From Eutreptiella sp. 'Long Island Sound 2002' (lineage: Eukaryota; Euglenozoa; Euglenophyceae; Eutreptiales; Eutreptiaceae), in contig OZ038379.1 in assembly GCA_964036045.1 (NCBI GenBank), positions 71,826,719 to 71,890,718 of the forward strand: 64,000 nt of DNA. Direction: 5' to 3'. The notes beneath the pieces are model-generated. The model had not been told where the DNA came from, searched no databases, and was given only the letters and a program-made list of their open reading frames with translations. This document shows positions 13,074 through 42,516 of the stretch, in pieces; position 1 is the stretch's first letter; the number at the start of each line of letters is the position of its first letter. The position numbers and the translations under genes were made by a program.

Positions 13074-13145
13074 CGCACGTCCAACCCTTCAGGCCGGCCC
13101 CTGTCCATAAGGGACAGCCTGCGGCTGACGGGCGCGGGATCCGCC

Positions 13146-14018: not shown

Positions 14019-14064
14019 TGGAGGGGGCACACCTGCCACCACGCATGCCTACCAGGATAACAGG

Positions 14065-16322
14065 ATGTCGGACTCTGATGGCTCCCCCCAGCGGGACGAC
14101 CGCCACCACCGCCGGTCCCGCTCCCGCTCCCCGGTCTCCCCGGGATGCGCGGGGGAGACCCTCGCGGAGTGCGAGGAGCGGCGGCTGGCGGATGCGGCGG
14201 TGCCGGTCGGATCGCCCGCTGAGCAGCCACGGGCAGCCTCTGCCGACACCGGGCCGTCGACCCGGGGACCTGCGCCGGCAGAGTAGACCACCCCCGCCGC
14301 CCTGGCTGCAAGCCCTGCCGCCCCACCCCCGGAGGGGGCCCGAGGCGCACAGGGGGCCGTGACCTCAGCCCCAGCAAGCCGCGCCGCAGCCCCGACCGCG
14401 GCCCCCGGCGCGCCGCCAGCGCGGGGCGAGGCCCCGGTGCGGGCCCGGGGCGCCTCGCCGGGAGCCGCCGCAGCCTCAGAAGAGAGCGGTGAGGGTGCAC
14501 AAGGAGCCGAAACCACGGCCCCGGCGAGGCGCGCCACCGCCCCGACCGGCCACGCCACGGCCCCCAGCGAGCTGCGGGCGCGGGGGACACACCCCGCGCG
14601 GGCCCAGAGCGCCTCACCGGGGGCCGCCGCAGCAGCAGCAGTGGGCAGGGAGGGCGCCAAGTACTGCGCCCACGCCAACCCCACGCACACCCACACCAGC
14701 CTCCCCAAGCCGTTTTTCCCCAAGGCCGCCTTCCCTGCAGGGCGGACGCGGCACGTCTGCCCCCCGGCATCCGAGCGTTCGCCGCCCGGCGTCACGCTGC
14801 CGCAGCTGCGGCGGCAACAGGACGCCCGGCGCGTGATCCGGGAAGGAGGGGACAGCGCGCAGGCGGGGCAGGGCGCCGGCCAGGGGAGCGCAGAGCGGGG
14901 GGCAGGAGGCGCCAGGGGGAATGCCCAGGGATGAACGCAGGGGGCAGGCCTGGGCGCACGCGGCAAGGAGCGAGGGCGAAAGCGCGGACAAGGTACCGAG
15001 GCCAGCGGCAGCGGAGGGGGACAGAGCGCGGGCTGCGGACGGCAGAACGCAGGACAAGGAGCCGGGAAAGGGCAAGGGTACGACAAGGGCACGCAGGGGC
15101 ACGAGCAGGTCGCCAAGGCGGGCAGTCACAGAGCGCAGGGAGTTGAGCGAGGCGCGGTCAGCGAGCGTGGGCGCAGCCAAGGGCATGGACACGGGCACGG
15201 GAAGGATACGGGCGCCAGTAGGGCAGGCCAGGGCACAGGGGACAGGGGGCAGGACCCGCAGCGCGGACAGGGGGACAAAGGCGTGGGGGCAGGGAAGGGA
15301 CCCAAGGGGAAGGGCAAGGGCGCCGTGGGCCATCAGGGACAGTCAGGACAGGGCTCGGCAGCCGCGGGGGGAGGACGGAGCGAAGGGAGGGGGACGGGGG
15401 GCGGGGCGCCCCCACAGCCGGACGTGCAGCCGGTGCGGTACATCCCCCCCGGCATCCAACAAATGCCGGCGCATGACACCCACCACCGGTACCACCACCG
15501 CGCCCACCTCCACAACATCGACCCCGACGCCGGAGACCTCGTCCCCGCCAAACCCCCCCGACCCCAGCACAAGCCGGCCCCCCCTGCGCTGAGGGCGGAG
15601 CCGGCGCGGATGGCTGCAGCCTCGGCGGCGGGGGGGCGGGACGCGGCGCAGGCGCCGCGGGCACAGGGGCCGCATGGGGGGCCGGCGAGGGGGGCAGAGG
15701 GAGCCCGGCCCTGGGACCGAGACTCGGACACGGTCCCAGGCCCCCTGGGGGGTGAGGCCCTCCTGCTGATTGTGGAGGTGTACGCTTGGCTGAGCTGGGC
15801 CTACTCAGGGACGACCAAGGGGATGAGGAACCGGCCCTTCCATGCCGTGCTCCTCGGGAGGGAGGGGGGGAATCAGCAGGTGCCCCCAGGGGGGTGGGCG
15901 GCCCGGGAGGACCACGAGAGCCTCCTCCGGATGGTGATTCGGGCGGGGTGGCCCGACAGGGAGCAGACGTGGCCGGCTTTCCTGGAGGGGGGAATGGTGC
16001 TCCGCATCACGGACGCGGATGCCAACAACTGCTCCCCCAGGCTTTGCGCAACGCCCTCACCCACTGGGGCTACCGCCGACGGAACCCGCCACCGCGGCAG
16101 CCCCAGCCCCCACACCGTACAGGCGATGGGCGCGGGGGGGGGAGGCAGGTGACAGTGCCGCGGGACGCCCCCCCCTGCGGAGCCGGGCCCCCCAACCCCC
16201 ACCCCCCCCCACCGTACAGTGCGGCGGAGGGGCGCGCGCCACCTCCAGTGGGAGGGAGGACGAGGGCACAGGGCCCGAGGGGAGGCCCACTGCCCCGCAG
16301 CCCGCTAACCGCTGACCGCTGA
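14065..16322 (+). pseudogene. LINE ORF1-like protein: SR-rich start, Gly/Lys-rich middle, folded C-terminal domain; interrupted
   Basis: It starts at ATG 14065 with an acidic/SR-type N-terminus (SDSDGSPQRDD...RRSRSRSP). The same frame continues through TAG 14284-14286 and TGA 14932-14934, past a long Ala/Pro tract and a Gly/Gln/Lys-rich stretch (GAGKGQGYDKG, GKGPKGKGKG). It reaches a more globular segment near 15750-16010 (LLLIVEVYAWLSWAYS, ESLLRMVIRAGWPDREQTW). Near 16030 the sensible frame appears to shift (LLPQALRNALTHWGYRRR), ending near 16322. RNA-binding low-complexity regions followed by a small domain fit a LINE ORF1, but no named family is seen. The three breaks make this copy inactive. 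Confidence 0.4.
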
Positions 16323-18988
16323 CCCGGACCACCGCCCCCAGCACGCACCGCCCCTCCCCCCCACCCCGGCCAGCCGGCACCGCGCGGCGGCGGCGGGGAG
16401 AGCAGGGGACCCGAGCGAGGGCCTGCGCGAGGGTCTGGCGCCCAAGGGCTAGGGGGAGGCGAGGGAAGAGTACGCCCCCCCAGTCAGCGGCTGGCCTCCC
16501 AGGACCGGAACCACCAGGCCGCCCCCCCGCGGCCGTCGAGGGCGGCGCCAGGAGGCCAGGGGGGAACAGGCGGGAACCCTCCCTCCCCTCCACCCCTCCT
16601 CCCCCCTTCACCCCCCCCCCCGCCCATGGGCGGCCGGAGGCCGGCCAGAGAGACGGCGGCCCCGCAGCCCCCCGGAGGGGCCGCTGCATCCAAGGGGGGA
16701 CGCCACAGCCGCGGCGACTGCAGCTGCGCGCCAAGCGCCCCCGGTCGGCCGCCCGCTCACTCCCGCATAGCTTGCTGCCGGCCGGCGGCTCTGCGCCGGC
16801 GCCGTGGGCCGCATCAGCACGATGGCGCCCGGGAATGGGCAGACGAGGCGGCCCGCCTTGATGCCCGCCTGGGGAAGGCGGGGGAGCAGGCCGTAGCGTG
16901 GAAACCTCTCGCCCACCCTCCCCCGCACTGACCCACCGGCGGCCGACCAGACCGCGCCCGGCGCCCACGACCGCCCAGCGACCCGTGTATACCAAGGGGG
17001 GGTGCACCGGAGAAGAAGGGGGACAGGCGCGGGGGCCCCGGGCGCCCCCCAGGATGGAGGAGAAGGGAACAGCGGCAAGGACCCCCCACCCCTCTCCCCC
17101 CCAACCCCCCCGGCCTGCGGGCCACGGGGGCACCGACCCTGTGACCCTTCCCCAGAAAGGACCGTGACGCCCGGGGGGGGACGCAGCTGGACCCGCACGC
17201 CGCGCGCCCCCGCGCCCCCCGCTGCCTGCCCCCGCGGGGGTTGTGGCAGGCGGGTGAACCCGCGCCAGCGCGCAAGAACGGCGCACGGGCCACGCCCGGG
17301 GGCGGCGCACCACAACAAACCGGAGCAGAATGAGGGTTGCGCCCCCATGACCCGAGCATCGCCAATGAAGCCCGCAATGTTGCCCGCCCAGGGAGGGCAG
17401 AGGGACGGACCGAGGCAACACAAGCCCCCGGCCCCCCGGCCCCCTGGTCACCCCCCTGGAGGGGCGGCTCACGGGCCGCCCCTCCCACCCCCCCCCCGCG
17501 CCAGGCTGGCCCGCTGGCGGCAGGCCGCACCCGGCGTCCGGGGCTGCCCCACGACCCCGGCCGAACGCATGCACCTGGAAGGGATGCGCCGGCGACGAGA
17601 GGGGGGCTGAGCAGAGGGCCGCAGGCCGCCCCCCCCAGAGAGGGAGGAGGGGAGCCACGGCGCGACCCCCCCCCCTATTCCCCCACCCCCCCAAACGACT
17701 CGCAAGCCACGGGAACGCCAGCCGCCATCCCCTCTGAGGCAGAGGCGGTGATCCCGCCTCCCCCCGGCAGGATCGCGGCGCCCGGGAGGGAGGCCGGAGC
17801 AGGGCCCGCCCCCACGCCCCAGCCGCCTGCTCCCGCAGGAACCACGATGGACCAATGAACCCGCGCCAACGCAACATGGCGCCACACGGACCGCGCCCGA
17901 AAACAGCAAACGAGCACGCACCAGAACAGTATGGGGGTCACGCCCTCCATGGCCAGAGCGACGTCCAGAACACCCGCTTTGTTGCCTGCCCAGGGGAGGC
18001 AGAGGGACGCACCGAGGCAAGGCGACCCTCAGCCCCACTGGCCCCTCTACCGCACAGACCGGGGGAACGGCACACAGCCCCCCCCCCCCCCACCCCCCGG
18101 CGCTGGAACGCTCCAGACGCGCAGGCCCACCCCACGGGGAGCACACAGCCCCCATCCAAGTAGGGGGGAAACGGGACCGGGCGCCCCCCCCTCAAAAAAA
18201 CAAACCAAACGGAGCACGGGACCGGGGCAGGAAGCGCAGAGAGGCACGGGCCGAGTGGAACGGCCCTACCAGCACCCAGAACCAGGACCGCGCAAAGTAC
18301 GCGCGCCACACCATCCAGGGGAGGGGGGGGGGGCGGACGCCACCGGAGCGCGAGCGCACACACACACAAAGGACACGCGGGGAAAACCAGAAGGGCAACC
18401 GGACCAAGCCCGCAGAACGCACAGACCGCATGGAATGGCGTACCAGCGAGCGAGGGCAAGAGACAACCGGACAGGACGGCCCGCCACACACAGCGCAGGA
18501 CACGCAGGGCGGGAAGGGGGAACCGGGGAGGACACGACAACAGGCACTGGCCCGGGGTCCCCGAACCGGCCGCGAGCGCCGCGCACACACGACCAGGGCA
18601 CTGCACCCGCAAAGGCAGTAGTGGTGCCCCAGGCCACGCACCAGTCCCAAGGCTAGGGAGCCTTCGCGCCAGCCCACGGGGGTCCCACTGGCGACGAGCC
18701 AGTAGCACGGGCCCGGCGGCGCCAGCGCCCCGGGTGACCACACATCAGGGGGGCAACGCGGTGGGTAAGCACCTGCAGCTACGGCTGCTAAGCGATGCAC
18801 TGACCGGGGAGGGGCGAAATGGGGAAGCCGGGGAGGGACAGGGCTCCGAGCCCCGTGAACCCGGAAGACTCCGCCACCAGGCAGGAGGTGTGTCATGAAG
18901 GGCCCCCCACTAGGTCCTGGTGGGGAGGATATCACCTGGCCCGACCAGGTGGCCCCCCGGGGCGGAAAGGCGTCTAGTACTGGCAAAA
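16323..18988. other. GC-rich tract without a convincing gene
   Basis: About 2.7 kb of very C/G-rich DNA with many open frames on both strands that look like composition artefacts (Pro/Gly/Arg/Ala throughout). It contains degenerate tandem repeats (listed separately). It may be LINE untranslated sequence. Confidence 0.4.
17240..18165 (+). repeat. Degenerate ~600-bp tandem duplication in GC-rich tract
   Basis: Segments around 17250-17460 and 17850-18050 share order and wording: GAACCCGCGCCA, then a GCAGAATG/ACAGTATG block, then TTGCCTGCCCAGG-type sequence followed by GGCAGAGGGACG. The spacing is about 600 bp. They are diverged but clearly related. Seen by eye; the exact ends are uncertain. Confidence 0.5.
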
Positions 18989-19009
18989 TCAAACCTCAAA
19001 CCTCAAACC
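18989..19009 (+). repeat. (TCAAACC)3 microsatellite at LINE junction
   Basis: Three perfect 7-bp repeats. They sit exactly where GC-rich untranslatable DNA gives way to a LINE RT frame, so they may be the 3' tail of an upstream LINE or filler at a 5'-truncation junction. Confidence 0.7.
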
Positions 19010-20401
19010 ACATTCCGCACTGGAGCAGGCCTCGGCCCCTTCCTGGAGCCATGCAGCGGGGCCCCCGAGGGAGGAGAGGAAGAGCCCTTCCTGTACCTCC
19101 TCGTGACACTCCCCCTAGCCCTCACAATTGAGCAGGATTACCCGGCCTACGCACCCTACCCCCACCTCTCCCCCCTAGTGGGCTTCGCGGACGACACCAA
19201 CCTCACGGTCACACACACCCCACAAGAACCCCACAGGCCGGACGACGGACCGACAGTCACCCAGCAGGCAAACAACTTACTGGATGTGACCATCTTCTAC
19301 CTCTCCCGCAACACCCTCGTCATCCACCCTACAAAGTTGGTGGCCATGATCAAAGGGTCTGCCACAGCCCCCACCCTGGGGCCATGAGGGCTGCCCATGC
19401 ACGTCGTGGAAGCCACAACCCACCTGGGAGTGATCCAGACCACCAACCCCGAAGATACCAACCTTCCCCCCAAGTTGCAATCACACCTGGCCCATCTCCC
19501 CCAATATGCGTCCCCGGCCACCAAGGCCCTCTCCCTATCAGACCAAAGCCTGGCATACTACCTCACGAAGGTCTTGAACGCCTCCATAGGCTTGCAGGCA
19601 CTCGACCTGACGCACCCCACCACCGCCCTCCAGCCAGCCACACGTGCCGTCACCAAGGCATGGGCAGCACACGGGGGCTGGCTCACCTTCATACCCACTC
19701 GAGCCATCGGTGCGGCATGGCCCCATTATGGGGACGCCATAGGTAACGAGGTGAAAGCGGCCTACACCAGGCACCCCGCTCTCCTCCTTCACCGCATGAT
19801 GCAGAACCACTCCCGGGAAGTTCGTGAAGTCGCCACGATCCGCCTCGAAGCCGCACAACGGGCCCGCAACACATGCCCACACTGGATACTCCCCAAGACG
19901 GGCATGCTCACCAACATCAACACACACATATGGAACCACCTGCAGCTTTTACTCCCTTCCCCGCAACACGCTATACTCACCAACCACACATCCCCAGAGG
20001 TTGGACCCCTGGCGGTTCTCTGTGGGGACCTCCACCATCACCCGAAAGGCACCATTGATACTAAAGGCCTCGTCGGGGCCTCCATCACAGTAGTATACTC
20101 CACTCTCCGCCGAAATGCGGGTCCTTCACCGCAGCGGGGCACACCACACTCCCTTCCTACAACTTCCCGAGTGGCCTCAATACCGCCTCTTCCGCCAGTA
20201 CCTCACACAGACGGCACGGGCAGCGGGGCAGACTCTGCCTGGAAACCAAGAAATGAAAAGAGCCTACCGGGACTTCAAAAAGCAGCACCCCTGTCCCGTG
20301 CCGGCGATACCGCCCTAAACGCCCACTGGCTCGAAACACGAACCCGTCCGCCCGGTGACAGGCCCAGTCCCACCGCTAACCCTACTAATGGCCCCAAACG
20401 A
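19010..20401 (+). pseudogene. GC-rich LINE ORF2, first half (RT palm and post-RT), 5' truncated
   Basis: The coding frame begins inside the RT just before motif 4/5 (GAPEGGEEEPFLYLL) and contains the catalytic GFADDTNLTV (FADD at 19184-19195), then a post-RT region (THLGVIQ...LAYYLTKVLN). TGA at 19385-19387 interrupts without frame change. The frame reaches the target-site duplication at 20387-20401 and, counting across the 9,450-bp insertion interval (divisible by three), continues in register at 29852. This ORF2 is therefore the target into which the AlkB-bearing LINE inserted. The upstream RT motifs and endonuclease are absent. Confidence 0.7.
20387..20401 (+). repeat. Left target-site duplication, 15 bp
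   Basis: AATGGCCCCAAACGA, identical to 29837-29851. The pair brackets the AlkB-bearing LINE. Confidence 0.95.
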
Positions 20402-20678
20402 TCACACTTTCTGAGTGTCTTTTTTTGTTCGATTGACCCTCAGAAATTTATTGATGGATCCACCAGCAGTCCAGGCTGTTCGGTGATCAACAAAAATCGT
20501 GGGCTGTTCAAGTTCTGGGCTGATCCCGTGAAGCCGTGGATTACCAACAAAGGTCCCAAAGCCGCAATTTGGAGCCGAGGCAAGCGCAACAACCTTGCCG
20601 TCAATTTATTTGCCTAGCGCAAAGCCGCAATCGTGAGCGCCGTCCTTTGCCTAGCTTCGCAACGCCGTTTTCTTGGCA

Positions 20679-23471
20679 ATGTCGCAAGTTGGGCTCAAGG
20701 AACGTTCCGCAAAGGACAAGACCGAAAGCAAACAGCTAAAGTCCGTGAAACGTTTCATTGCTCGAACTCAGGCTAAAGTGGACGCCAAACAGACTCAAAG
20801 TCGGCTTCTCCCTACGCTTTCGCCCGCCAAACGCGAGAACGACCCATTTCACCCTTCACTCGACCTTTCCCCGTCACATGAAGAAGGCACGTCATCCAAT
20901 GTCATTTCAGACGATGAACAACCCGAAGATGTCGCAAAAGAACTCTTCCCACTCGCCGAGACAACGGCTCACACTGTCAAAGGAAAAGGAGCCCAAGAAC
21001 CACAACATCAAGTCCAAGCGCCCGCCCCGCCAACCACCTCCGAGAAGGTGCAAGACTCCGTGCCCAAAGGCACGCACGAGAACACCGAAGCGCCCGCTCC
21101 GCCAACCAACTCCGAGAAGGTGCAAGACTCCGTGCCCAAAGGCACGCACGAGAACACCGAAGGAAGCCATCGACGTGATGCCGAAGAGTCGAAACAACAA
21201 GAAGAAAGTCGCGAAGACCCGTGTGGAGATTCGGCAATGAACAACAACGCCGCTCTCAAAGACAACGCAAGGAGAACCAATGAGGTTGAGCCCGACAACT
21301 CCCTCTTAACGCCACGTGAGGAGCAATCTACGCCAAGCGCTATTCCGTCTCCCGAAGGAACACACGAAAAGGCCGAAGACGGGGAAGACCCTACTCCCGA
21401 TGAAACGGATGGTAATTCCGGAAAACCCTTCTTCAACCCTTCCCTTGCCCCGGATGGTGTCTTTGCAAAATTCTTGGTTAAACATAAAGGTGAGATCAAC
21501 ACACACGATCAACAAGCACTATGGGGAGAAACACATGTCCATGAAACCTTAGGAGTTGATACAAATCAACTCGTGTTAGAGAAACACCACAGGCAAGTGA
21601 TCTATGATCAAGTACACCCAACAATAGACCTTTGCGCGAGCGACGGGTGCACCTTTTTCCAAGACATTGATTGCTCCGGCAACAATGCCTACTCCACAAT
21701 TGGACATGACAATTTTAGGTACCTCAAAGACATCCTACATCACCACCCAAAGTCTTACATTTTTCCACACCCACAAGATTACTACAACTCCAAATACAAA
21801 TACGGCAACACATGGACCGAGTGGGCCCATGCCATCAACGAAGCCTTGCAAGAAGCCTTTGATTCCGGTGTAGTGTACGAAGGCTCCTTCATTCTCCCGG
21901 GAATGGAAGACAACCTTTCGGCGGAGACCCTCTACATGAACCCCTTGAACCCCGGCATGATCTCCCTTGCCCCTTGGGTGTGTGGAGTAGACCGGCTTTC
22001 GGACGCCAACACGTACAACCCATCACCTAATCCCGATGGCTCCGTGCGGCTCAACTTGCTTGACTCTCCACAATACCCATATTTTCACCTTCACCTCTCC
22101 ACCCGTCACAAGCACCACGCACACATCCGCTACGGCGACATCATGCACCCTCACACCTCCCTGCAATGGGCCATAAATAAGGTGGACGGCACCGTCCAAG
22201 TGGCCGCGGTGCGCACAACGCTACGATTCGAAGTTGCACGGCATTTGCTCCCGAACTTCACCGTCTCTTCTCCAAAAGAGCTTTCCAGAAAATCCAAGCG
22301 GGAACGAAGAGAGTATAGGCGGCGCCGTGGCAACGCCCGTGATTTTTTTGTCCTCGTCAACCGCCTTTTTCATTTCGAAAACGACCACATCTCGGTCAAC
22401 TCCAAAAATGCTTTCTTTCCGGAGGAACGCATACAGCCTCTACAATCATCCTCCGAACATATGTTGCGCTTCGATTACACCATACCAACCCCCCTCGCCG
22501 AGAAGCTTCTCTCCACCATCTTACAACACCCTTTGTGGACGCTCGGCAAAGTCTTTTGCATCTGTGGTTCCGATCTAGGGAAGGACAAAACTTTCAAAGT
22601 TGTACCTTCAAAAGCATACAAGCAGGCCACGCCGGACTTCAAACAAATTGACGTGTGGAAATCCCTCCTTACTAGCGAAGCCGCACGACGGTGCGGTATC
22701 CTAGAAGCCATTCCCAGAACACAACACGAATTTTACGTGTGCATGAACTATCACAACACCCCCCTGCTCCCCCAGCGAGACTCCCTCACTTCCATGAGCT
22801 ACATGCTCTTCCAAGAGAATAACCTGGTCACGTATCGGGGCACTACGGGAGCCATGATCTCTTGGGGAGGATACTCCTCTTGGCGCTCGAAACACCTGGG
22901 ACACAAAGTGGACCTCTCCGCCTCTCCCCGGAAAATGCACAAAGATGCCCCTCCCCCACCCTCCCCGGTGAAGGCTTGCTTCAACCCCCTCCCTGAACCA
23001 CCTGATCCAGAACTGGTAGAAGTACACGCCCCGTCATCCACGCCGGAAATTGATGTAATGTTCGGGGTCTCCCTGCTTGGGAAAATTCGGCACATTTCCT
23101 TGTTCAGCGCCCTCATGGCTAAGGTGCGAGTCTACCGAGTGAAATATGCTCATTACGAATCCGCGCTCCTTGCAGAAGGCTTCACCGTGTCCCAGCTCGT
23201 CTTTCAGCCCGAGTGCCCCGACACGGCCGCGCGTGACAACCTTTTGGCTCCCGCCAACCCCCTGGTTTCGGAAGCCCAGGATTTCCTATCACGAGTCATC
23301 GAGGCGGCGACTGCGTACGGCAGCGCGGAACAACTAAGTCTCGCGAGGGACCATTACTTGTCCACAAGCAAGCCTCTCTCCCTCACAGAAAAGATCGCAC
23401 AACTCCACCTCCAAACAGGGAAAGTTTTCGACCCCATCCCGGAAATAACAGGAGCCTTCATATCCAATTAA
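20679..23471 (+). CDS. LINE ORF1 protein, 930 aa
   Basis: ATG 20679 is the first Met (MSQVGLKERSAKDKTE). The first ~250 residues are disordered, Lys/Glu/Pro-rich and include two tandem 24-residue repeats. From about residue 290 the protein becomes globular: IDLCASDGCTFFQDIDC, WTEWAHAINEALQEAFDSG, HLHLSTRHKHHAHIRYGD, a basic patch (KELSRKSKRERREYRRRR), FFVLVNRLFHFEND and IARTQ-type basic residues near the start. No RRM, CCHC or esterase motif is visible, so it is not one of the familiar ORF1 types. It ends at TAA 23469-23471; the frame then continues open into the AlkB domain, and the last residues (TGAFISN) look like the beginning of that domain. In an intact copy ORF1 and AlkB were probably one protein of ~1,130 residues. 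Confidence 0.8.
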   Translation: MSQVGLKERSAKDKTESKQLKSVKRFIARTQAKVDAKQTQSRLLPTLSPAKRENDPFHPSLDLSPSHEEGTSSNVISDDEQPEDVAKELFPLAETTAHTVKGKGAQEPQHQVQAPAPPTTSEKVQDSVPKGTHENTEAPAPPTNSEKVQDSVPKGTHENTEGSHRRDAEESKQQEESREDPCGDSAMNNNAALKDNARRTNEVEPDNSLLTPREEQSTPSAIPSPEGTHEKAEDGEDPTPDETDGNSGKPFFNPSLAPDGVFAKFLVKHKGEINTHDQQALWGETHVHETLGVDTNQLVLEKHHRQVIYDQVHPTIDLCASDGCTFFQDIDCSGNNAYSTIGHDNFRYLKDILHHHPKSYIFPHPQDYYNSKYKYGNTWTEWAHAINEALQEAFDSGVVYEGSFILPGMEDNLSAETLYMNPLNPGMISLAPWVCGVDRLSDANTYNPSPNPDGSVRLNLLDSPQYPYFHLHLSTRHKHHAHIRYGDIMHPHTSLQWAINKVDGTVQVAAVRTTLRFEVARHLLPNFTVSSPKELSRKSKRERREYRRRRGNARDFFVLVNRLFHFENDHISVNSKNAFFPEERIQPLQSSSEHMLRFDYTIPTPLAEKLLSTILQHPLWTLGKVFCICGSDLGKDKTFKVVPSKAYKQATPDFKQIDVWKSLLTSEAARRCGILEAIPRTQHEFYVCMNYHNTPLLPQRDSLTSMSYMLFQENNLVTYRGTTGAMISWGGYSSWRSKHLGHKVDLSASPRKMHKDAPPPPSPVKACFNPLPEPPDPELVEVHAPSSTPEIDVMFGVSLLGKIRHISLFSALMAKVRVYRVKYAHYESALLAEGFTVSQLVFQPECPDTAARDNLLAPANPLVSEAQDFLSRVIEAATAYGSAEQLSLARDHYLSTSKPLSLTEKIAQLHLQTGKVFDPIPEITGAFISN
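21018..21161 (+). repeat. Two tandem 72-bp (24-codon) repeats in LINE ORF1
   Basis: Copies at 21018-21089 and 21090-21161 differ at very few bases; each encodes APAPPT(T/N)SEKVQDSV plus PKGTHENTE. The unit length keeps frame. It lies in the disordered N-terminal region. Confidence 0.95.
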
Positions 23472-24083
23472 TTTTCCTCAGAAGAAGAGGAAGCCCTGGT
23501 AATGTCCTACAGTGCAGATGAAAATCACCAGTGGCTGTCCGAGGGGCACTGCACAATGCTTCATTTCGGATTCAGGTACAATCCAGAATCAAAAGAAGTT
23601 GAACCTTTTGAACCGACCCCTCCTGAGTTTTTTCAAGCGATTGGGCTTCGGGCATTCTCTGCCTGCGCCCAGGTGCTGCCCTCCTCTGTCTTGTGCCCCA
23701 ATATGTGGTCAGTGGCTCGATACAAACCTGGCAGTGGCCTGAGGAGCCACGTAGACGTCCCTCAGCTAGGCCCTTATGTCCTGGATGGCTCCTTTGGGTC
23801 AGGTGCGGAAAAGGTTTCCGAACCGCGTCCCCTCCCCGGATCCACCCTCGTTAAGAAAAGGCAAAAAGTCTTCCTACAGCGCCGCAGCCACTTCCTAATT
23901 TCTGGGGAAGCCCGCGACAAATGGAAACACCAAATCCCAGCTCGCGACTATGACACAGTGGAGAAGCGGCGCATTCCCCGAGACTCCAGGGTATCCCTTG
24001 TCTTCCGTCACACTGGTGCAGGAAAGGACCTCCATACAACATCCTCAGAGCCCCCTGACCCGAGGCAACATGAGACGAATTAA
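23472..24083 (+). CDS. AlkB-type 2-oxoglutarate/Fe(II) dioxygenase domain carried by the LINE
   Basis: AlkB enzymes use Fe(II), O2 and 2-oxoglutarate to remove alkyl groups from nucleic acids. From Met 23502 (193 aa) the hallmarks are LHFGFRYNP (residues 20-28), NMWSVARYKPGSGLRSHVD (67-85) with iron ligands H83 and D85, a distal iron ligand H143 in KWKHQIP, and R163-V-S-L-V-F-R169, the family's RxxxxxR 2-oxoglutarate/substrate motif. Spacing and order fit AlkB. The frame is the same as ORF1; after TAA 23469-23471 it reads FSSEEEEALV, which resembles the usual acidic N-terminal helix of AlkB domains. The TAA therefore probably falls inside the domain and is either a nonsense change or a readthrough site. 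Alternatively translation restarts at 23502, which would lose the first helix. Ends at TAA 24081-24083. No other break is seen. Confidence 0.88.
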   Translation, partial: FSSEEEEALVMSYSADENHQWLSEGHCTMLHFGFRYNPESKEVEPFEPTPPEFFQAIGLRAFSACAQVLPSSVLCPNMWSVARYKPGSGLRSHVDVPQLGPYVLDGSFGSGAEKVSEPRPLPGSTLVKKRQKVFLQRRSHFLISGEARDKWKHQIPARDYDTVEKRRIPRDSRVSLVFRHTGAGKDLHTTSSEPPDPRQHETN

Positions 24084-24414
24084 TGAGCCTACACTCGGCG
24101 TCACCCTTCTGTGCACACGAGACGTGGTCTTCGCTTTAAGACCCCGGATACCCTCGATCACCACTATTGCATGTTCTCAGGCATGGCAAGGCCATCGCTA
24201 TACCACTCTCCCTGTGCGTAACATGAATTCCTTAACCCCTGTGACCGTCAGGTATGCCCTGATAGGGCTGATCTGTGCTCACTGTGTACCAGACCACAAA
24301 TTCCTGTGGTTCACCTTGTGGGAAGCTCTGATGAGTCTACCGAATGCTACCCGTCCCCAAATTCTTTCTGCCCCCCTCCCGCCCGTCAGTGCCACCGCAG
24401 GAGAAGTAACATGA
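24070..24414 (+). CDS. Small ORF linking AlkB and ORF2, 114 aa
   Basis: Starts at ATG 24070 within the end of the AlkB frame (14-bp overlap) and stops at TGA 24412-24414, overlapping the ATG of ORF2 as ATGA at 24411-24414. Both Met codons sit in the same context (AACATGAGACG). The protein is mildly basic with a Cys/His and aromatic segment (LIGLICAHCVPDHKFLWFTLW). It may be a real coupled ORF, or only a spacer permitting termination-reinitiation into ORF2. No family is recognised. Confidence 0.45.
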   Translation: MRRINEPTLGVTLLCTRDVVFALRPRIPSITTIACSQAWQGHRYTTLPVRNMNSLTPVTVRYALIGLICAHCVPDHKFLWFTLWEALMSLPNATRPQILSAPLPPVSATAGEVT

Positions 24415-27400
24415 GACGGTGTAAAGAGATCCTCGCCCGCCTGGGCGTGCACGGTGCCTCCCTCACCGCCACTGTCTCTCGCATCGCGGAGATTCTCCCT
24501 GTGGAGCAAGCACACATCAATCCGAGAATATTGGTCCCAGACACAAGTGTCTCTACAGACCTGGCTATACACCCCTCTCTTCGCACTGCCTGTGACACGG
24601 CCTTACACCACTCGCCCAAAGCATACGCACAAGCACTTCACTCTCGGGTTTCCTGCACTAGAACAGTGCAAACCCAACCCCTCAATACAAAATGAAGACC
24701 CTGCCCACATACCAACGCTTCTGACACCGGACTCCCCACTGGGTACCCGCTATTCCTCCATTCAGACGCCCTCCTTCCCCCCTCCCCCCCAAGTGCACCA
24801 GCCCTTCAAACCTAAACGCTTGCGCCGCCCCCTCCCTTCTCTTCCCTCCGTCCCGGCCATCCGTGTCGTGTCCTTCAACACGGCAAAGAGCCAGAACGCA
24901 ACCGCGGCAATCTTGCATTTCCTAAACGAGGGTTATGACATTATACTCCTTCAGAAGCTAAACTCTCCCCCTCTCCTCCCACAGCGGTACGCCTTCGACA
25001 ATGACCGCGCTAACCTCTTCTCAAATGTCTGCGGCCACAAACACGGGGTGTCGGTCATTGCAGGCCCGCGCATCGCGAGATATACCAGCTGTGTCCCGCC
25101 CAGAGACAGCGACGGCCTTATCTGTGGTGCCAAAATATCCCTTCCGGAAGCAATTCCCCTGCACGTCTTCTCAGTTTACTCCCCCCGCTGCGCACGGGGG
25201 CCCCAGCTCCGTACCGTGACACCATACAGCGAGATCTTGCTTCTATTTTCAACGATCATCCCAATCAGATCCTGGGGGGTGATTTTAACTGCGTTCTGGA
25301 TCCCGAACTTGACCAGCACAGCTTGGTCGATCTACATGAGTGGCACTGGCTCACGGGGGAGGTGGAATACCTCCCATCTAGGTTGGTGGACACTTTCAGG
25401 TCGGAGCACCCCTCCCTCAGGCAGTACACCCGCTACGCAAGCGACCGCTGGGACAGCGAAGCAAGGCTGGATTACATCTTTGCGTCCCCTCGCCTAGTGT
25501 CACACTTTCCCCTCCTGGATGCGTCGATCCTCACGGACTACACCATCTCTGACCACCACCCAGTGGTTGCGGTCTTCCAGTGCCCCTCCCCAATCCTACT
25601 GTCACAGCCCCCACTCCCCCCTCGCATTTTTCAGAAGCTTTCTAGAGACGAAAAGCAAAAATTTTCCAACAGCATACGGCTCATTTCCGACTGGTGCCGG
25701 GACCTCCAGGACGCCCCTGCCAGGGCCCCATTGGAAGAGATCATCGCCGCCACTGATTCTCTCCTTATGCAGGTTGGGTCTGCGTACCACAAAATCACGC
25801 GTCCGAAACCGCAGCGCAAGGACCAAGAGAGCTACGGCAAGCTCAGGAAATTATTACGCTCACCCCCGCCTCCTTCCTCCCCGGCATTTCCCGAGCACAT
25901 TGCGGAAGTTCAGTCTGTGGTAAACACCTTACGGTCCTCGGACGAAACCAAAGCGAAGAGAAAGCTTCACAGTAGTCTGGTCCGAGGGGTCCAGATGAAA
26001 ACCACTGTTGCTCGCACCCTCTGCCCCAAAGACCTGGAGCCTCTCGTAGTCAGAGATCCAGCCACCAAAGAGCTCCTGAGTGACCCAGCGGATGTAGCTA
26101 AAGTTTTTGGGGAGACCCTGCTTCATCTTGGAGGGCATCCAGATTACGCCCCCCCCCAGGACTTCGTCGACGAGGTCCTGTCCCACTCGCCCACATGCCC
26201 CGTTTCTGCCAGGAGCGACCACATACCTCCTGTGACCTAACAGGAGTTCCAGAACCACTTAAAGCACAGTAAGCCATCAAAAGCCCGGGGACCGGACAAA
26301 ACAAAAAACTACATCCTGGCCCTCTGTCCGGAACCCATTCAACGTTTTTTCCACTCCATTTTAAACCGCTTCCTCCACTCGCCGCTACCGCCGCACTGGC
26401 TATGCGCGAAAATATGTTTGCTTTATAAAAAAGGCGCCCCTTTCTCCCCCTCAAACTACCGTCCTATTGCCCTCTTAAACTGTATTTACAAACTCTTGGC
26501 CACTTTTGCCTGCAAACACCTGCGAGCTCAGGCTTTTGCACACGACATCCTTTCAGAAATCCAGCACGGTGGTCTTCCCGGCCACCAATGCGCTGATCAT
26601 CTGTATCACCTCAAGGCCCTTTATGCAAAATCGAAGAAGAGCTACTCGCTGTTCATCGATTTCAATAAAGCCTTTAATTCTGTGCCCCATAGCACACTCT
26701 GGACCGTCCTCGAACGGGCTAATTTTTCTACCTCCACAATTTCTCTCATAAAGCAATTATACTCCTTCCCACAAGACAGCCCCATCATCAATGGCCGCAC
26801 TCCCCACGCATACCTCCAAACCAGGGGCCTCCGACAAGGATGTCCCCTCTCCCCCCTACTCTTCATTCTCTATCTCAACTCCCTCTTCCACCATTTTGTT
26901 GCCACTGTGCCCCCCCCCCCCCCCGAGCAAATGCCCGCACTGGCCACCACGCCTACATCGACGACATCCTGATCAGAAGTGAGGACGTCATCTACGTCCA
27001 AAACAGTCTCAACTACTTCGATGGGCCAGCCAGGGACTGGGGTCTGGACATGAATGTATCTAAGACCGAAGTCCACGCCAATGGCACAGCCCCCCAAAAA
27101 GAGTTTCTGACACCCAGGGGCTCGGAGTTCCACACGTACAACAAAAAAACGGGTCGCCCGCACACATGCTATAAATACCTGGGGGTTTATCTTTTTACTT
27201 GCCACCAGGCAAAGGGCCTGTTTCACATGCTCAAGGCGGAGATCCAGAGTTATTTTGCCCGGCTCTCTCCCTTGCCTCTTACACTTAGTGAGAAGGACCG
27301 CCTGACGAACTCTCAGCTGGTCCCAGCACTCGCCTACCGCTTAATCACCCACTCTCTTTCCCCCAACCAGCTCGAAAAGCTTCAGGCACTCATCTGGGCG

Positions 27401-29728
27401 GGGGTTGCGTCTCGCAGCGTCACACGTCTAGTCTCCCCCAAAGACCGTTTCGCGGCTCGCCCAAAGGGAGGGTTGGGAATGAAGTTCCTACCGCACAGCG
27501 TCCACGTTGCCACCGTGAACTATGGGCTACGGGCCCTTTGCGGCCTTGCCCCAAAGTCAGTTGGCCGTCTGTACGTCCAGTCTCTACTTAGCTCGAACCA
27601 GAGGGCCTCGGACCCAGTGCAAAACTCTTTTATGGACTCCATCCATGCCCTCGGCATATCTTTCCACAGCATAGGCCCGTGGAGACCCACTGCTATTCGA
27701 GATCTAACGCCTGGTACCCAGTTAACCGTTAGGTTCAAGTCAGGACAGGCCACAGAAAGAGTGACCGAGGCCACCTCCAAATGGGCCAACGTCTTGTTCC
27801 ACGACGGGGTCTATTCGGTGGATACCCGCACGTCCTACACCATGCACATGCCATGCCACGCCGTCATGGATTACTCCCGTCCCTCTCACTTCCAGCTAGT
27901 CCCTGAATTTTTGCGCCCTCAAGAGACCATCCCCGAACCCCCAGCGCCACCGCACAACGCACACACACTGGGAATCAGCCAACACGGCCACCTCTTCGCT
28001 CTGCAGGCACAACACTACCTAGAGAAGAAGTCTCTCGACGAGTGGGGATGCCACGATGCCGCGGAGGCACTAACCAGGCCGCCGACCCCCGGCCTACAGC
28101 GAGTATGGCTATATTCCGATGGCTCCTCCGGTGAGTCCGGCCATGCGGCCGCCGTCACGGCCTTTCTACCCGACGGTACAACCAGAGTCCTGTGCCTATC
28201 CTCACCGCATCCCTCTTCTCTGGGTTCGGAGTTCTGGGGGGCGGTAGCAGCCATTCGCTGGATCCACAGGGAATTTTCCCAATACGAAGTATGTTTGTTG
28301 ATTGACAACGAACAGGTGGTGTCCACCCTCCAGAAATGCCAAGTCTATGGGCCCAGCCCGTTCCAAGACGACACATGGACCGTCGCCGTACACAGCGCCC
28401 TACTTCTCATCACCAACCCCCTCCACATCATGTGGATTAAAGGTCACGCGAATTTCATTGGCAACGAAATCTGCGACCATTTCTCTAAACGGGCAGCTCA
28501 CAGCCTGATTTTTACCCCGGACCTCCTCCCCCCCCCCCCACTGGGTTCAGTGGCGGTACACCACCTGCCTGTCCTCCACAAGTTTAAGGTGCAGCAATTC
28601 TGCCACCTGTTGCCGCAGCATTCCCATAGCAACATAGCGGTGGGCCCCAGCGTCAGCCTGTACAAGAAAACTTCCTGGTTTTCGTCCCTGTTTTTCAAAC
28701 TGGCGGCCGGGTGCTACAATGTGCACGGGTACCAGTGGAGCAATATGCTCCACGACTACCACTGTTCCAGGTGCGGACAGCAAAATCCTTTCGACCCTTT
28801 ACCATGCCTGGCCTTCTGCAAATCGTTGGACCAGCACGTCCAGGCATACGTCTCTTCCTGGGGACCCCTTTTCAGCCCCATTGTCCTGCACTGGTGGCTC
28901 TCTGGACCCTCAAAGGCTGACCGCAGGAACTTCATGAGAACTCTGGTACCTAAGTCCCTATGGTCCTGCCTCTCCAAGCCGATCCCGGGATCCACTCGCG
29001 CCGAGCACAGAGCCATGCTTGGCCTAGCCCTGGAGGAACGCGTAAAACACCTGGACAAGGCTGTCCACCAAGCACATGATTGGCTATGTTCGAATCCTCT
29101 ACCTTGGGACCCAATACTTTGGGCGCACCCCTCCGACCCCCTCAACCCTTTCTCGGTTTCGCACGGTGCGTTCGGAACCTCCGTCCGCATGCCCCCTCGG
29201 ACCCGCCCCGTATACCAGCACCCCCCACCTCTCCCCAAACACGCCTTAAAAAAACCGTCCAAGCCAGCGTCAGCCAAAGCACAACCAACCACTCGCCGCG
29301 CGCCGAAAAATTCCAAACGCCCGTCCAGCCGCGCATCCGCACCACGACCCCTCCCCCCTCGGCCATTCCCCGCCCTCCTGAGCACTCACGCCCACGGCCA
29401 CCACAAAAACGCCAACGATCACCACAAACCCATCAGGCCACAATCGTTTGGGCGCCCCCAAAACGTGCCAAGACCGCTCTCCCCCTCCCACCCCCACGCT
29501 CCAAGACACGCTACCGTCAAACACGCCTACCTCTCCCCTCTAGGCCCACCGCTACTAGGTGCCCAGGCCCGTCTGCCCCTGCCCCCCCCCACTCCAATGC
29601 CTCCCGGGACATCGGAAATTTTTCCCGCCCGTCCAGCGATCTTCTGTCTCCTCCTCTCGACCCCTTCAGCCCTCCGCCCCTTCCTGAACCCCCCCCCTCC
29701 CCCACAGGGTAAATCAGCGTTCATCTAA
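24411..29728 (+). pseudogene. LINE ORF2: APE endonuclease, reverse transcriptase, RNase H; disabled
   Basis: Starts at ATG 24411 (MRRCKEILARLGVHG). Endonuclease: IRVVSFNTAKSQ near 24860, DIILLQK near 24940 where the catalytic Glu of the usual LQE is Lys, GGDFNCVLD at about 25275-25300, RLDYIFAS near 25466 and SDHHPV at 25548. RT: ARGPDKTKN, NYRPIALLN, FIDFNKAFNSV, GLRQGCPLSPLLF and AYIDDILI (YIDD at 26954-26965). RNase H at about 28100-28505: YSDGS, GSEFWG, LIDNEQ and KGHANFIGNEICDHFSK. A Cys/His-rich C-terminus follows near 28765. Breaks: frame changes near 24.66 kb, near 25.24 kb and at the C-run around 26909-26924, and an in-frame TAA at 26238-26240. Normally ORF2 nicks the target and copies the RNA in place. 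Confidence 0.9.
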
Positions 29729-29836
29729 CCAAACCATCAGAGCAGCCGTGTACATATCTTTATATGTTGTTGTAAATACTTTCATTGGGGGACGTCAGCC
29801 CCAGAACAAGTTGATGCGGTTAAGAACATTCCAAAA
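29729..29836 (+). other. 3' UTR and tail of the AlkB-bearing LINE
   Basis: 108 bp ending in a short A-run before the right target-site duplication. The segment 29806-29828 also occurs, reverse-complemented, as the core of a 30-bp insertion in the gypsy 3' LTR, which confirms this as the LINE 3' end. Confidence 0.85.
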
Positions 29837-29851
29837 AATGGCCCCAAACGA
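29837..29851 (+). repeat. Right target-site duplication, 15 bp
   Basis: AATGGCCCCAAACGA, identical to 20387-20401. Confidence 0.95.
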
Positions 29852-31824
29852 GGCCAAACCCACGCAGACCACCGTCATACACCACGGGGCAAAATGCTCA
29901 TACCAAAACACCACATGACCGCCCAGGACCTATCGGCCGTCCCTGACGACTCCCAACACATGCCAAGCAAATGTTGGGCGTGTGACCCCAACTCACCCAC
30001 CACACCATGGCCCGTATTACACCTCATAGCACGCCACCACACCCACCCCACAGCCCACCTACCACCACAGACCTACGCACGGGTGGCCCCGTGGTTCCAC
30101 CGAGCTGATACGAACCCCACAGTGGCGTGGAACCCGGACCACAAACCCCAATGGCTATTCACCACAACACCCACCTGGCCCCGCCCTGACCCCGCAGGAA
30201 TTGCAATCTGTTACAGCATATAGGAACCAGGCAGCAGGGGCAAGCACGAGCACCCCTATTATCCGCTCCACCACTCCTGCCACACATCAGAACACCTAAC
30301 AAAAACCCTCACATGCCGGGACCTGAACCCGGACACAGCCTACATCCTCCGCTACATCTACTCCTACCTCACACAACGACAACCAGAACACAGACTCATA
30401 GCCATGTCACCCAGCGCGAGGCGCATCATCTCCAAGTGAATAGGGGTGTGCGCCACCCCCATCCCGCAGCCCCAAAACCCGGTGGCCCACTTCACCACGG
30501 GCGTCGCCATATATGCCTACCTACCCATGAACCCATGCCGCCTCCCACAACCATCACCGGCGGACCTACTCTTCTTCACCGACGCCTCAGGCGAGTCCGC
30601 CCTCACGCCCCACACCGGGGGGGCCAACCTGCAACTGACCCACAGCGAGGGACACTACCACATGGACCACCACAAGGGCCACCCACCTACAGGGCCTCCT
30701 TCCGCGGGGAACTGGGGGCCATGGCCGACGCCATCGCCAAAACTGCGGTCAACCTGCCCGCCCTCCTCCCGCAAGTTGTCCGGGTCTGGTTCGTAGTGGA
30801 CGCCACTGTAGACACACACCTACTCCTTCGCATAGCACGACAGCCACTCCACAAAGCCACCGCGTCGAGCCTCAGCACCCAAGCACTGCTGCTCTGGAAA
30901 CCGCTTCGCAGCCTTCTCGCCTACGTCCAACTTAACATCGTGAAGCAGGAGTCCCACAGGCACCAATACAGAAATGGTAAGGTCGACATCCAGGCAGTTC
31001 ACCCTCGCAGTACGCACCTACCGACCCTCCAGGTGCCCAACCTGGACCGAAACCACACACACTTCCAGCACATACGCCCCCAAGCCGGAACTCCATCAAA
31101 CCCCGGACTGGGTACCGAAGGACGCCCCCTATACCTCACAGGACAGAGCATACCATTACCCGAACCCCCTCGAACATCTCGCCGGCGTGCTCGGCGACAC
31201 AGACAGCCGAGCGCACATCCAAGAGCTCCAGGAGAAACTCAAAGTCGTCTCTACCACTCGGCGCTACGACCAGCGTGCGTCCCAGCCCATCTGCAGATAC
31301 GACCTATCTAGCCTCTCAGGGGACAACTACGATTCCTCATCAGGGTCGCCCGATGGCTCGCCCGCAAGCACATCCACGTCCCGGAAGAACACACCCGCTG
31401 CCCATGCGACCACACCACCCTGAAGGACTGGGAACACTTCAAGATATGCCCCCTGCATACGGGCAGGGACACACTAGTGGGGTGGTCCCCGGGGGAAACC
31501 CTACAGCAACACAAAGGCTGGCCCACCCACAGCCACACACACCAAGCAACGGAACACCTCCTCACGGATCCCCTGATCAAGGAGGCCACTATGAGAGGGG
31601 CGGTGACAGAGGCCCTGCTACGGCACCTCACCAAACACGCGGAGGTCCTGATGGGGGCAGTAGCACACCTCCAGCTAGAGGCAGTCTGCAGAGCAGCGGC
31701 CCAAATGGTACACCGCAAGCGCCTCCTGTTGACACGCACAGAGCAACTTGCAGACCACAGTACCAGGGAACACATGCTGCGTCTCATCCATTACCATGCC
31801 GTGCATGACCCGGAGGTCCACTAA
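29852..31824 (+). pseudogene. GC-rich LINE ORF2, second half: RNase H and zinc finger
   Basis: Continues the frame of 19010-20401 after the LINE insertion. In-frame TAG 30221-30223 and TGA 30437-30439 interrupt. RNase H: LLFFTDASGE near 30560 (first Asp), then after a frame change FRGELGAMADAIAK near 30700 (Glu), WFVVDATVDTH near 30790 (Asp) and SHRHQYRNGKVDIQA near 30955. A zinc-finger-like CPCDHTTLKDWEHFKICPL follows near 31400-31460. Further frame changes lie near 31.0 and 31.3 kb. The terminal segment (31.5-31.82 kb) is helical and ends at TAA 31822-31824. It is the same domain order as the RNase H-zinc finger fragment at 9875-12467, so the two are probably related families. Confidence 0.65.
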
Positions 31825-34217
31825 CCTGCTCTGCGCCCCACACACGCCCCCCACCTCCGTCGACAGGCCTCCAAAACACCACCAGAGCACCCCAGAAGAC
31901 AACCCACCGCAAGACCCCCCCACCACAAGCCCCGAAGACACCCCAGGACCAACCACCTCTCAGCCACGGGACCACCCGGCACCACCAAGCCCAGCCAAGC
32001 CTGTCCAAGACCACCCACACATCGACGTCTGCCCGGCACCGCCAGACCCCCCCAGACCGGGCCCCCCCTCCCCTCACACCGGCCACCATCAGGGACCCCG
32101 ACTTTCTCCGAGCAACCCTCCAAGGAAGGGCCCTAGACACTCCCTTGGGCTGATACCGCCTACAAGAGAGCTGGACCAAGCTCACCGTCAAGGCCCTCCG
32201 GGACCTAGCCACCCCGGAGAAAGGTCCCCACGAGGCCATCGTAGACGAGGTCCTCTGGAGGGCCCGCAAACACACCCAAGACCAGCACATCTGCATTCCC
32301 CCCCATTGAGTGGGGCCAGGCCCTGACACACGACACCGACACAAACGTCACACGTTGAGGAACCACACGCCTACGACGAGCCCCAGCGGAGAAGGACCAC
32401 CCAGCAGACCCGAACCATCCGGAACAGTGGGAACAGGCCATCACACACCAACTCGCAACACCGCCCTTCGCGCCGCCGGCCTCCGCACCCCCGATGAAGA
32501 CCGCCCCCCCCCACCTACAGACAGCGACCACCCCCCGCCGGAAGTCTGGTGTACAGTTCTCGAGCGCGGGCACTACTACGGAGTGGCCGCAACAGCAGCG
32601 TCCCCCGGCCAACAATGGGTAATCAAGGGGACCGACACCATGCTCCTCCTAGGGGCCGCCATACCAGGGGCAATAGGAGACCCAACCACCCCGCACAAGG
32701 TCCTGAGGGGAGTCCTCCAGTCGGGGGACAAAGCCCCGGGCCGCGCACTGGCCCAAATTACCTACCACCTGGGACTGGCCATGCTCTGCCTGTCCCAGTG
32801 CATCAAGTGCCGCTGGCCGTCCACAGGGACCGTGCCCTGGATCTGGGCCATCGCCACCGCCCACACACAAGTCGAGGCGCGCCCCGACACGCGGAAGGAC
32901 CCCCCCCCGCTACAACACTCCCTCACCTGCGGGTACCACGCCATCGACAGGGTCCTCCGGCGCAAGGGCCTTAGCCCACCCCTACAGTACCCTCTTCCCA
33001 CCACCGACCAAGAGGTGCCCCAAATACGGACACTCATCTGCGAAATCATTGCCACGGCCGCAGAAGACGGCAAGCTCATCCTCCAGACCTCCCCACCTAC
33101 ACGAGACCACAGCAGCACCCCGCTGCAAGCGGACACTTACACTGAGACAACACACGCGAACCCAGCCCCACCCCCCCCACTCTGCCCCTGCCCCTACCCC
33201 TCCCTCCCCACTCCCCACCCAGCAGCGCACACACACTCACCATCGCGCGCAGCCCCAGGCCCCGCAACACGGGCCTCCCCCATCCACCCGGTCACCCACA
33301 CACGCCGGCCACAGACCCTCCCGCCGAACGCCCCTCATCGCCCTTCACACCCGGCAACCCACACACACCTGCCGCGAAGAGCCCCTAGCCCCACGGCACA
33401 CCCACCCTGCCCAGTGACCCGCATACGCCCACCGCAAACCCCCCCGAAACCCCAGGCCGAACCCTCCCGGCCCCCAAACGCGGCCCACGCGAACTGTTCC
33501 CCCCCGCGGACGCCGACGTGCATGCCCTCACGCGTTGCAGGAGCCCAGCCGAGCCGAACCCGGAGGGCGGAGACCGCAGCCCCGCACCTCCCCCGCCCAC
33601 CGCCGCTAATCAGATCGGCCCACTGGGCCGCCAGGTCGCGGCAGGGCCCCTCCAGCCACGCGCTCCCAACCCGCAGCCCGAGGAGATGCCCTCCATCCTC
33701 CCGCAGTGGCCACAGCGGAGGCCGCCGCGGCCCACAAAGCCGCACCCGCCCGCATGGCAGCGCAACCCACATCCCCCAAAACCACCACTTCCTCCTCGTC
33801 CTCATCCCCTTCGACGTCCTCCACCTCCTCCTCCGACCTCCCCCTCCCCCTCATCCACAAAGCCACGTCCAAAGCCAAAGCTGCAGCCGCACGCTAAGCT
33901 GCCGGAGGCCCACCAACCCCCACACAGGCAATTCTGGCACCCCGGCAGCACGCCAGAAACCCTACCCACCCAGCACCGGTGCCCTCACACCTCCAGGACG
34001 AGGTTCTCCTCGACCTCGAACCGGACCTCAACATGAAACCCGACCCCAAACCGAAACCGGAGCCCAAAACGACAACACCGCCCACAAAAGCACCACCACC
34101 ACTACCACAACCAACAACATCACCAACACCACCCACACCAGCCCACACAGCAGCAAAAATCACAAAAGGCGCGATGGCAGCAGCACCGGAAGTGCCCCCG
34201 CCCTGACAAAACCCTAA
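31825..34217 (+). pseudogene. GC-rich ORF with possible Ulp1-like cysteine-protease domain, then Pro/Thr-rich tail
   Basis: It follows the LINE ORF2 stop directly. Sensible sequence begins near 32075 (TIRDPDFLRATLQGRALD), with a TGA near 32143 and a frame change near 32310. The frame 32310-34217 contains VWCTVLERGHYYGVAATA (His near 32570), QWVIKGTD (Asp ~21 residues later) and LQHSLTCGYHAIDRVL (Gln five residues before Cys, then Gly, near 32912-32960). The order His-Asp-Gln-CysGly is that of C48/Ulp1 papain-fold proteases, though the Asp-to-Cys spacing (~105) is long. After ~33150 it is low-complexity Pro/His/Thr/Arg and probably not structured. It could be a C-terminal domain of the LINE, a separate ORF, or chance similarity. 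Confidence 0.35.
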
Positions 34218-35843: not shown

Positions 35844-35945
35844 AGGAAGATCCCATGTGACATGGCAGTGACCTCAGCGCCACAAGCCATGCCACCTCAG
35901 CACCTATGAAACGCAAAACAAAGAGTGCACATCTCTAGATGGCAC

Positions 35946-42510: not shown

Positions 42511-42516
42511 GAGTAC

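Follow-up and report, generated by a model that had tools for sequence, protein, structure and literature searches.

The window analysed here is a stretch of 64,000 nucleotides of contig OZ038379.1 (positions 71,826,719 to 71,890,718, forward strand) in the genome assembly GCA_964036045.1 of the euglenophyte Eutreptiella sp. 'Long Island Sound 2002'. It contains a complete non-LTR retrotransposon, assigned to a family that we call A, whose first ORF ends with a domain of the AlkB type. The features of the element, with coordinates counted from the first letter of the window, are the following.

20387..20401, + strand: 5' copy of the 15-bp target site duplication AATGGCCCCAAACGA, an exact repeat
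20402..29836, + strand: complete non-LTR retrotransposon of family A, 9435 bp, its ends set by the duplication
20679..24083, + strand: ORF1, encoding ORF1p of about 1134 amino acids, broken by a TAA at 23469-23471 (open frames, comparison of copies)
21016..21162, + strand: tandem repeat of two 72-bp units, N-terminal region of ORF1 (repeat search)
21465..22934, + strand: central domain of ORF1p, residues about 271-760, conserved in families A' and B
23442..24017, + strand: AlkB-type 2OG-Fe(II) oxygenase domain, the C-terminus of ORF1p (PF13532; ALKBH8 in PDB)
23469..23471, + strand: nonsense codon TAA of the window copy (comparison with unbroken copies)
23748..23756, + strand: HVD, the iron ligands His-x-Asp, kept in families A, A' and B
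23928..23930, + strand: distal iron-ligand His (translation, family alignment)
23988..24008, + strand: R-x5-R motif, RVSLVFR (translation, family alignment)
24069..24410, + strand: 114-codon open frame at the ORF1/ORF2 junction, open in 18 of 20 sequences, the window copy included
24411..29728, + strand: ORF2 (endonuclease, reverse transcriptase, RNase H), in several frames in the window copy; start from comparison of copies
25179..25556, + strand: part of the APE-type endonuclease domain, Exo_endo_phos (Pfam, 3.4e-6)
26427..27190, + strand: reverse transcriptase RVT_1, across two frames (Pfam, 5.2e-25 and 0.0026)
28100..28498, + strand: RNase H domain (Pfam, 3.4e-6)
29837..29851, + strand: 3' copy of the target site duplication AATGGCCCCAAACGA, an exact repeat

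The element lies inside a C-rich segment (window positions 10000-20386 and 29852-36000, with 61-76% GC and an AT skew of up to 0.41), which contains long open frames, one of them with a weak match to zf-RVT (E 0.002), and a part that looks RNase H-like by eye (30190-31311); this segment is possibly another LINE. Pieces of Gypsy-type LTR elements occur at 1-2787 (matches to RNase H, integrase and chromodomain) and at 42499-45560 (reverse transcriptase, RNase H and integrase), the integrase match being below the Pfam cut-off in both, and a 111-bp tandem repeat of 3.7 copies is found at 39008-39417. Elsewhere in the assembly, which comprises 2.28 Gb and was searched as a whole, a chloroplast-type atpA is situated on a 50-Mb contig (L030), and the Euglenozoa-specific paraflagellar rod family PF05149 has a full-length match (E 1.2e-105) and 39 matches among 130 candidates; together, the two point to a photosynthetic euglenid. 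An assembly of Euglena gracilis is reported, in the accessible text of its description, to have 2.37 Gb in 46 chromosomes of up to 121 Mb, repeats making up 58.84% of it and LINEs 1.49% (PMC11252322); the present assembly differs in chromosome sizes, with contigs of up to 201 Mb.

A preliminary description of the window, made from the letters alone, had proposed that an AlkB-type domain sits inside a single LINE insertion. This is borne out both by the exact 15-bp repeat at 20387-20401 and 29837-29851 and by the profile search then suggested, which does return AlkB: the frame at 23472-24083 matches the Pfam family PF13532 (2OG-FeII_Oxy_2) with E 4.7e-9, its score of 37.2 bits exceeding the curated cut-off of 31.2. 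The 203 residues of this frame include the HVD triplet, the distal His (within WKH) and the RVSLVFR motif at the positions listed above, and the sequence contexts FGFRYN and NMWSVARYKPG, all of them pointed out in that description, are likewise present in the translation. The interval 23472-24083 itself had been given as the extent of the domain; AlkB is indeed there, but the left edge reflects just the preceding TAA, the domain starting at about 23442.

A correction is also needed of where the domain belongs, as it had been placed between ORF1 and ORF2. AlkB and the preceding ORF1 share one reading frame, with only the TAA at 23469-23471 between them, and this position is occupied by a sense codon (Glu in L010) in those compared copies whose frame is intact. 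Among the 150 AlkB matches listed from the genome, 27 lie in open frames of at least 1100 amino acids with no stop inside the match, and in all 20 copies drawn from these 27 and fetched for their long frames (L009-L028) the ORF1 frame runs unbroken over at least 1118 amino acids (exactly 1142 in 12 of the 20) and has AlkB at its end. A database cluster of 113 member sequences (P0089) also represents a whole protein of 1134 amino acids with PF13532. Because the frame runs through AlkB in these copies and in the cluster, AlkB is the C-terminal domain of ORF1p and not a unit between ORF1 and ORF2.

An AlkB domain encoded as a separate ORF is ruled out by the same unbroken frames elsewhere. The ORF1 frames of 1118 and 1142 amino acids encountered among the 20 fetched copies differ by 24 amino acids, that is 72 bp, a difference that fits one versus two units of the 72-bp repeat. 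The central domain of ORF1p is conserved among the families and lineage-specific; no significant relative of it was found in Pfam or PDB, and no RNA-binding fold was recognised in it. The 114-codon open frame at the junction begins just ahead of the ORF1 stop and was compared in the window copy and 19 others; one locus of another family (family B, L034) has no gap between the ORFs, unlike family A with this frame.

As regards ORF2, the description of an endonuclease of the APE type, a reverse transcriptase and an RNase H stands, with Exo_endo_phos, RVT_1 and RNase_H all matched downstream of ORF1. The window copy has its ORF2 in several frames. With a TAA in ORF1 and frameshifts in ORF2, the window copy looks dead. 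The corresponding ORF2 of family B, 31-40% identical to that of the window copy (tblastn), is represented by an unbroken frame of 1584 amino acids (L032) that matches RVT_1 (2.8e-27), Exo_endo_phos (6.8e-10) and RNase_H (1.9e-7), and, in the PDB, an R2-type reverse transcriptase (1.1e-15) and L1 ORF2p (1.6e-15). Half of the 20 fetched family A copies give a single continuous alignment of 9.1-9.5 kb with the window element, at 95-97% identity, while the alignments of the other ten fall into at least two pieces or are cut short. Exact duplications of their own, 12-18 bp long and located at or a few bases from the same ends, are present in 12 of the 20 copies; one further copy has an 8-bp duplication, and in seven none was found. 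The duplications and the shared ends are as expected if the entire element, with its AlkB domain, is inserted by target priming. With a reverse transcriptase and an APE-type endonuclease in one ORF and with target duplications of variable length, the element is a genuine LINE.

The domain is not peculiar to the window copy. When the genome was searched with the family A AlkB domain, the best 150 of 1489 first-look candidates were scored and all of them, the window copy included, proved to be at least 90% identical. Copies found via AlkB cannot, however, show whether AlkB is always present, and we therefore searched the genome with the N-terminus of ORF2 alone (the first 240 residues of ORF2 of copy L028), scoring the best 150 of 10530 first-look candidates. 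An AlkB match lies 100-1600 bp upstream and on the same strand in 97 of these 150 best copies (including the query copy and some near-identical duplicates), the AlkB places compared being the 150 family A matches listed and 22 from a genome search with PF13532. From the remaining 53 copies, which do not appear among the AlkB places listed, five were taken at random; AlkB is present in all five, its match spanning 203 residues in four of them and 105 in the fifth. The occurrence of AlkB in other copies, raised as a check in the preliminary description, is thus confirmed, and no copy lacking AlkB was seen among the 97 and the five, all of which come from the 150 best matches to an AlkB-bearing copy. 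The first-look counts of 1489 and 10530 are not usable as copy numbers, because words may be shared with other families; set against each other, they leave room for many ORF2 copies or families without AlkB.

The PF13532 search of the genome, in which the best 150 of 1107 candidates were scored, gave at least 151 matches. Five long-frame matches outside the family A list (L031-L035) all belong to a second family, B, in which AlkB likewise precedes ORF2. The ORF1 frame of this family has 956-1043 amino acids in four loci; the N-terminal part is out of frame in L034, and in L032 the frame extends past the fetched stretch. A third family, A', is known from a database protein of 1117 amino acids (P0103), whose central domain shares 60.8% and whose AlkB shares 46.3% identity with family A. 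The ORF1 products of A and B are colinear over 832 aligned positions (24% identity, E 2e-61), with AlkB in the same place and 30% identical between the two families, and A, A' and B all keep the same layout and the iron ligands. Searched against whole ORF1, PF13532 is matched with 3.2e-11 in one family A copy, with 2.8e-14 in family B and with 3e-6 in A', where the score of 28.0 bits falls under the cut-off of 31.2. A tree of 11 AlkB domains, with long branches, neither shows nor rejects a single origin of the LINE domains: the LINE sequences need two changes in the best tree, one change suffices in 18% of the bootstrap trees, and the p-AU value is 0.41. With the tree undecisive, the case for one fusion comes from the colinearity of ORF1p in A, A' and B.

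The same genome search yielded several further AlkB matches of more than 60 bits in single long frames, as well as two loci that look like separate host genes, one ALKBH8-like (L036) and the other encoding AlkB with a CCCH zinc finger (L037). In Diplonema papillatum, a relative of euglenids, a dozen AlkB-type homologues are reported and read as regulatory demethylases in the accessible text of PMC10161547. A protein from a JGI metagenome that bears the name alkylated DNA repair dioxygenase AlkB (P0059) corresponds, by eye, to the C-terminus of a family B ORF1p; as it reads as LINE ORF1p, LINE fragments are annotated as cellular repair genes, and AlkB genes annotated in environmental data can therefore be pieces of such elements.

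Among cellular proteins, the AlkB domain of the LINE is most similar to ALKBH8. Human ALKBH8 (3thp) is its best PDB match by sequence (E 1.5e-7) and also the top match of a profile built from families A and B (7.1e-20), followed by Schizosaccharomyces pombe P8A3.02c (2.6e-14); a DNA N6-methyladenine demethylase scores 1.6e-5 with this profile, and ALKBH2, 3, 5, 6 and 7 and Escherichia coli AlkB range from 1e-4 to 0.08. Run against a large protein database, the profile returned 86 proteins; of the 12 that were examined, ten look like LINE ORF1 products and two (P0081 and P0082) like cellular ALKBH8-type proteins. In a single hhalign comparison, the LINE domain matches these two proteins and the host ALKBH8-like gene (L036) taken together with 99.6% and E 7.5e-25. 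The likeness is accompanied by clear differences. Identity is 27-33% to ALKBH8-type proteins and 27% to the host ALKBH8-like gene. ALKBH8 proper has an RRM ahead of the AlkB domain and a methyltransferase domain after it. No methyltransferase domain follows AlkB in the LINE protein, PF13532 being the only Pfam match in the whole ORF1 of A, A' and B, and ORF1 of family A stops 24 codons past the second Arg of R-x5-R. An RRM ahead of AlkB was detected neither by Pfam (at E 10) nor by the PDB profile nor by hhalign, which is a weak test, as Pfam also found none in P0081 and P0082. By eye, the stretch just 5' of AlkB looks RRM-like.

The residues expected of an active oxygenase are largely retained. 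In the alignment, all three families retain the His-x-Asp...His triad and R-x5-R, and among 21 family A copies, the window copy included, H1032, H1092, R1112 and Y1023 are present in all 21, and D1034 and R1118 in 20. The Tyr of the N-x-Y motif is kept in all three families; its Asn, which we take to be a ligand of 2-oxoglutarate, is kept in B and replaced by Ala in A and A', which places a reservation on any catalysis predicted for the latter two.

Selection was assessed by the comparison of dN/dS across copies that the preliminary description had suggested. Among the 21 family A copies, which had been chosen for a long ORF1 and a close match in AlkB, pairwise dN/dS is 0.60 for the N-terminal quarter of ORF1p, 0.23 for the central domain, 0.26 for the linker and 0.33 for AlkB; among four family B copies it is 0.16 in AlkB, 0.28 in the central domain (a value inflated by the out-of-frame part of L034) and 0.35 in the linker. 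Variants of family A were further split by frequency, which tells post-insertion decay apart from changes that arose in the active lineage. For AlkB, the ratio of nonsynonymous to synonymous variants is 68:38 for singletons and 5:11 for variants shared by at least three copies (Fisher p 0.026); in the central domain the ratios are 147:91 and 10:35, respectively (p 1e-6). A simple mutation model predicts more nonsynonymous changes than are found among the 16 shared AlkB variants (p 0.0005) and, by a slight margin, among the AlkB singletons (p 0.036); for the latter shortage the choice of copies may account. The shared variants suggest purifying selection on the AlkB domain, and selection appears to have kept AlkB in related LINE families.

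What the domain does for the element can be approached from its sequence and its position. The explanation that we favour, with a probability of roughly 55%, is that ORF1p carries an Fe(II)/2-oxoglutarate oxygenase that would clear base methylation from the element RNA before reverse transcription. We infer here RNA binding by ORF1p, catalysis by AlkB, and methylated bases in the element RNA as the substrate: ORF1p, like LINE ORF1 proteins generally, would coat the element's own RNA; the tethered AlkB would oxidatively strip N1-methyl-A, N3-methyl-C and possibly N6-methyl-A that block or mark this RNA; and ORF2p would then copy the cleared RNA by target-primed reverse transcription, leaving the duplications of 12-18 bp. 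The evolutionary counterpart of this scheme, an old fusion of an ALKBH8-like oxygenase to ORF1 that would have been kept as an active eraser in cis within the element's own ribonucleoprotein, an epitranscriptomic enzyme encoded by a LINE that would either let the element's reverse transcriptase read the RNA or hide the RNA from host marking, is a proposition that we put at even odds. The roles suggested in the preliminary description, reversal of methylation on the RNA or cDNA of the element or a countermeasure to marking by the host, are plausible. Since N1-methyl-A and N3-methyl-C stop reverse transcriptases, an eraser residing in the particle would directly serve the LINE. The kinship to ALKBH8, whose known substrate is the wobble uridine of tRNA, counts against this explanation. 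A less probable substrate is N6-methyl-A since, according to the accessible text of PMC7873242, L1 in human cells is promoted by m6A and suppressed by ALKBH5; by this analogy, an m6A eraser would not obviously be of benefit to a LINE.

The foremost alternative, unlikely in our estimation, is that AlkB acts on DNA, in alkylation repair or removal of N6-methyladenine at the nascent cDNA or the target site, and thereby helps integration or escape from silencing. Relatives of AlkB do act on DNA as well as on RNA, and the A and B profile also matches, though more weakly, a DNA N6-methyladenine demethylase in the PDB (E 1.6e-5), but ALKBH8 (7.1e-20) and P8A3.02c (2.6e-14) rank ahead of it and of the DNA-acting AlkB and ALKBH2, and LINE ORF1 proteins are bound to RNA. 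Next in order, and rather improbable, comes a purely structural role, in which the AlkB fold would bind RNA or help ORF1p to assemble but would have lost its oxidising activity. The Ala in place of the N-x-Y Asn in A and A', and an identity between these families that is lower in AlkB (46.3%) than in the central domain (60.8%), would be at home in such a scenario; less so the iron ligands and R-x5-R kept in three families and in at least 20 of 21 family A copies, and the AlkB dN/dS of 0.16 in four family B copies. Ranked after it, and quite improbable, is an ALKBH8-like task carried over into the element, with tRNA or other host RNA being modified and the translation of the element or the host thus tuned. 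ALKBH8 is the best match by sequence, by profile and by profile-profile comparison; against such a task speak the lack of a methyltransferase domain (PF13532 being the sole Pfam match and family A ORF1 ending 24 codons past R-x5-R) and, in what is a weak test, of a detected RRM, and a role in cis in the element's own particle takes fewer assumptions.

Finally, a host AlkB exon captured by chance in the window copy alone, a notion to which the broken state of this copy (the TAA in ORF1, ORF2 in several frames) and the seemingly separate AlkB genes of the host (L036, L037) could lend some colour, is highly implausible given the best 150 genome matches at 90% identity or more, AlkB upstream in 97 of the 150 best ORF2-found copies and in five of five fetched from the other 53, the layout shared by A' and B, and the mere 27% identity to the host ALKBH8-like gene. 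A captured exon unique to this copy is contradicted by the distribution of AlkB over copies and families.

The euglenid element resembles other LINEs with an APE endonuclease and RNase H, such as Ingi/L1Tc of trypanosomatids (I clade), in having an endonuclease, a reverse transcriptase, RNase H and target duplications, and differs in its central ORF1p domain without a significant relative in Pfam or PDB; we know of no AlkB in those LINEs. TET/JBP dioxygenases travel with fungal KDZ DNA transposons, which offers a parallel of a 2OG-Fe(II) oxygenase moving with a transposon, although one of another oxygenase family, in a DNA transposon and as a separate gene. The preliminary description did not recall AlkB as a component of LINEs, and among the papers listed from the open literature, as covered by titles and the openings of abstracts (subscription papers and repeat databases being outside this scope), we likewise found no AlkB in a LINE. 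Plant RNA viruses share with the euglenid element the combination of an RNA-based parasite and an AlkB of its own; they copy RNA into RNA, whereas the euglenid AlkB resides in a structural-type retrotransposon protein, and the two are likened here by description. Members of Alphaflexiviridae, Betaflexiviridae and Closteroviridae carry AlkB, postulated to serve genome maintenance (cited in the accessible text of PMC9289625).

For retrotransposons in general there is a precedent, AlkB having been reported in an LTR retrotransposon: the same source describes an AlkB borne by a Ty3/Gypsy element of the orchid Phalaenopsis that binds RNA and demethylates RNA in vitro (PMC9289625). Both are retroelements in which an AlkB-family domain has persisted through repeated copying. 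The orchid case, as far as that text goes, concerns an LTR element of one orchid lineage, with AlkB as an extra separate ORF that falls among ALKBH5/9/10-like plant proteins (PMC9289625), whereas the euglenid element is a non-LTR one, with an ALKBH8-like AlkB fused to ORF1p in at least three diverged families. An abundant LINE with a tethered enzyme offers a testable system for asking whether target-primed reverse transcription is limited by methylated bases. Should the domain prove active, RNA-based parasites with an RNA eraser of their own would include LINEs in addition to plant RNA viruses and a single LTR lineage, and methylation of retroelement RNA would emerge as a recurrent battleground or barrier.
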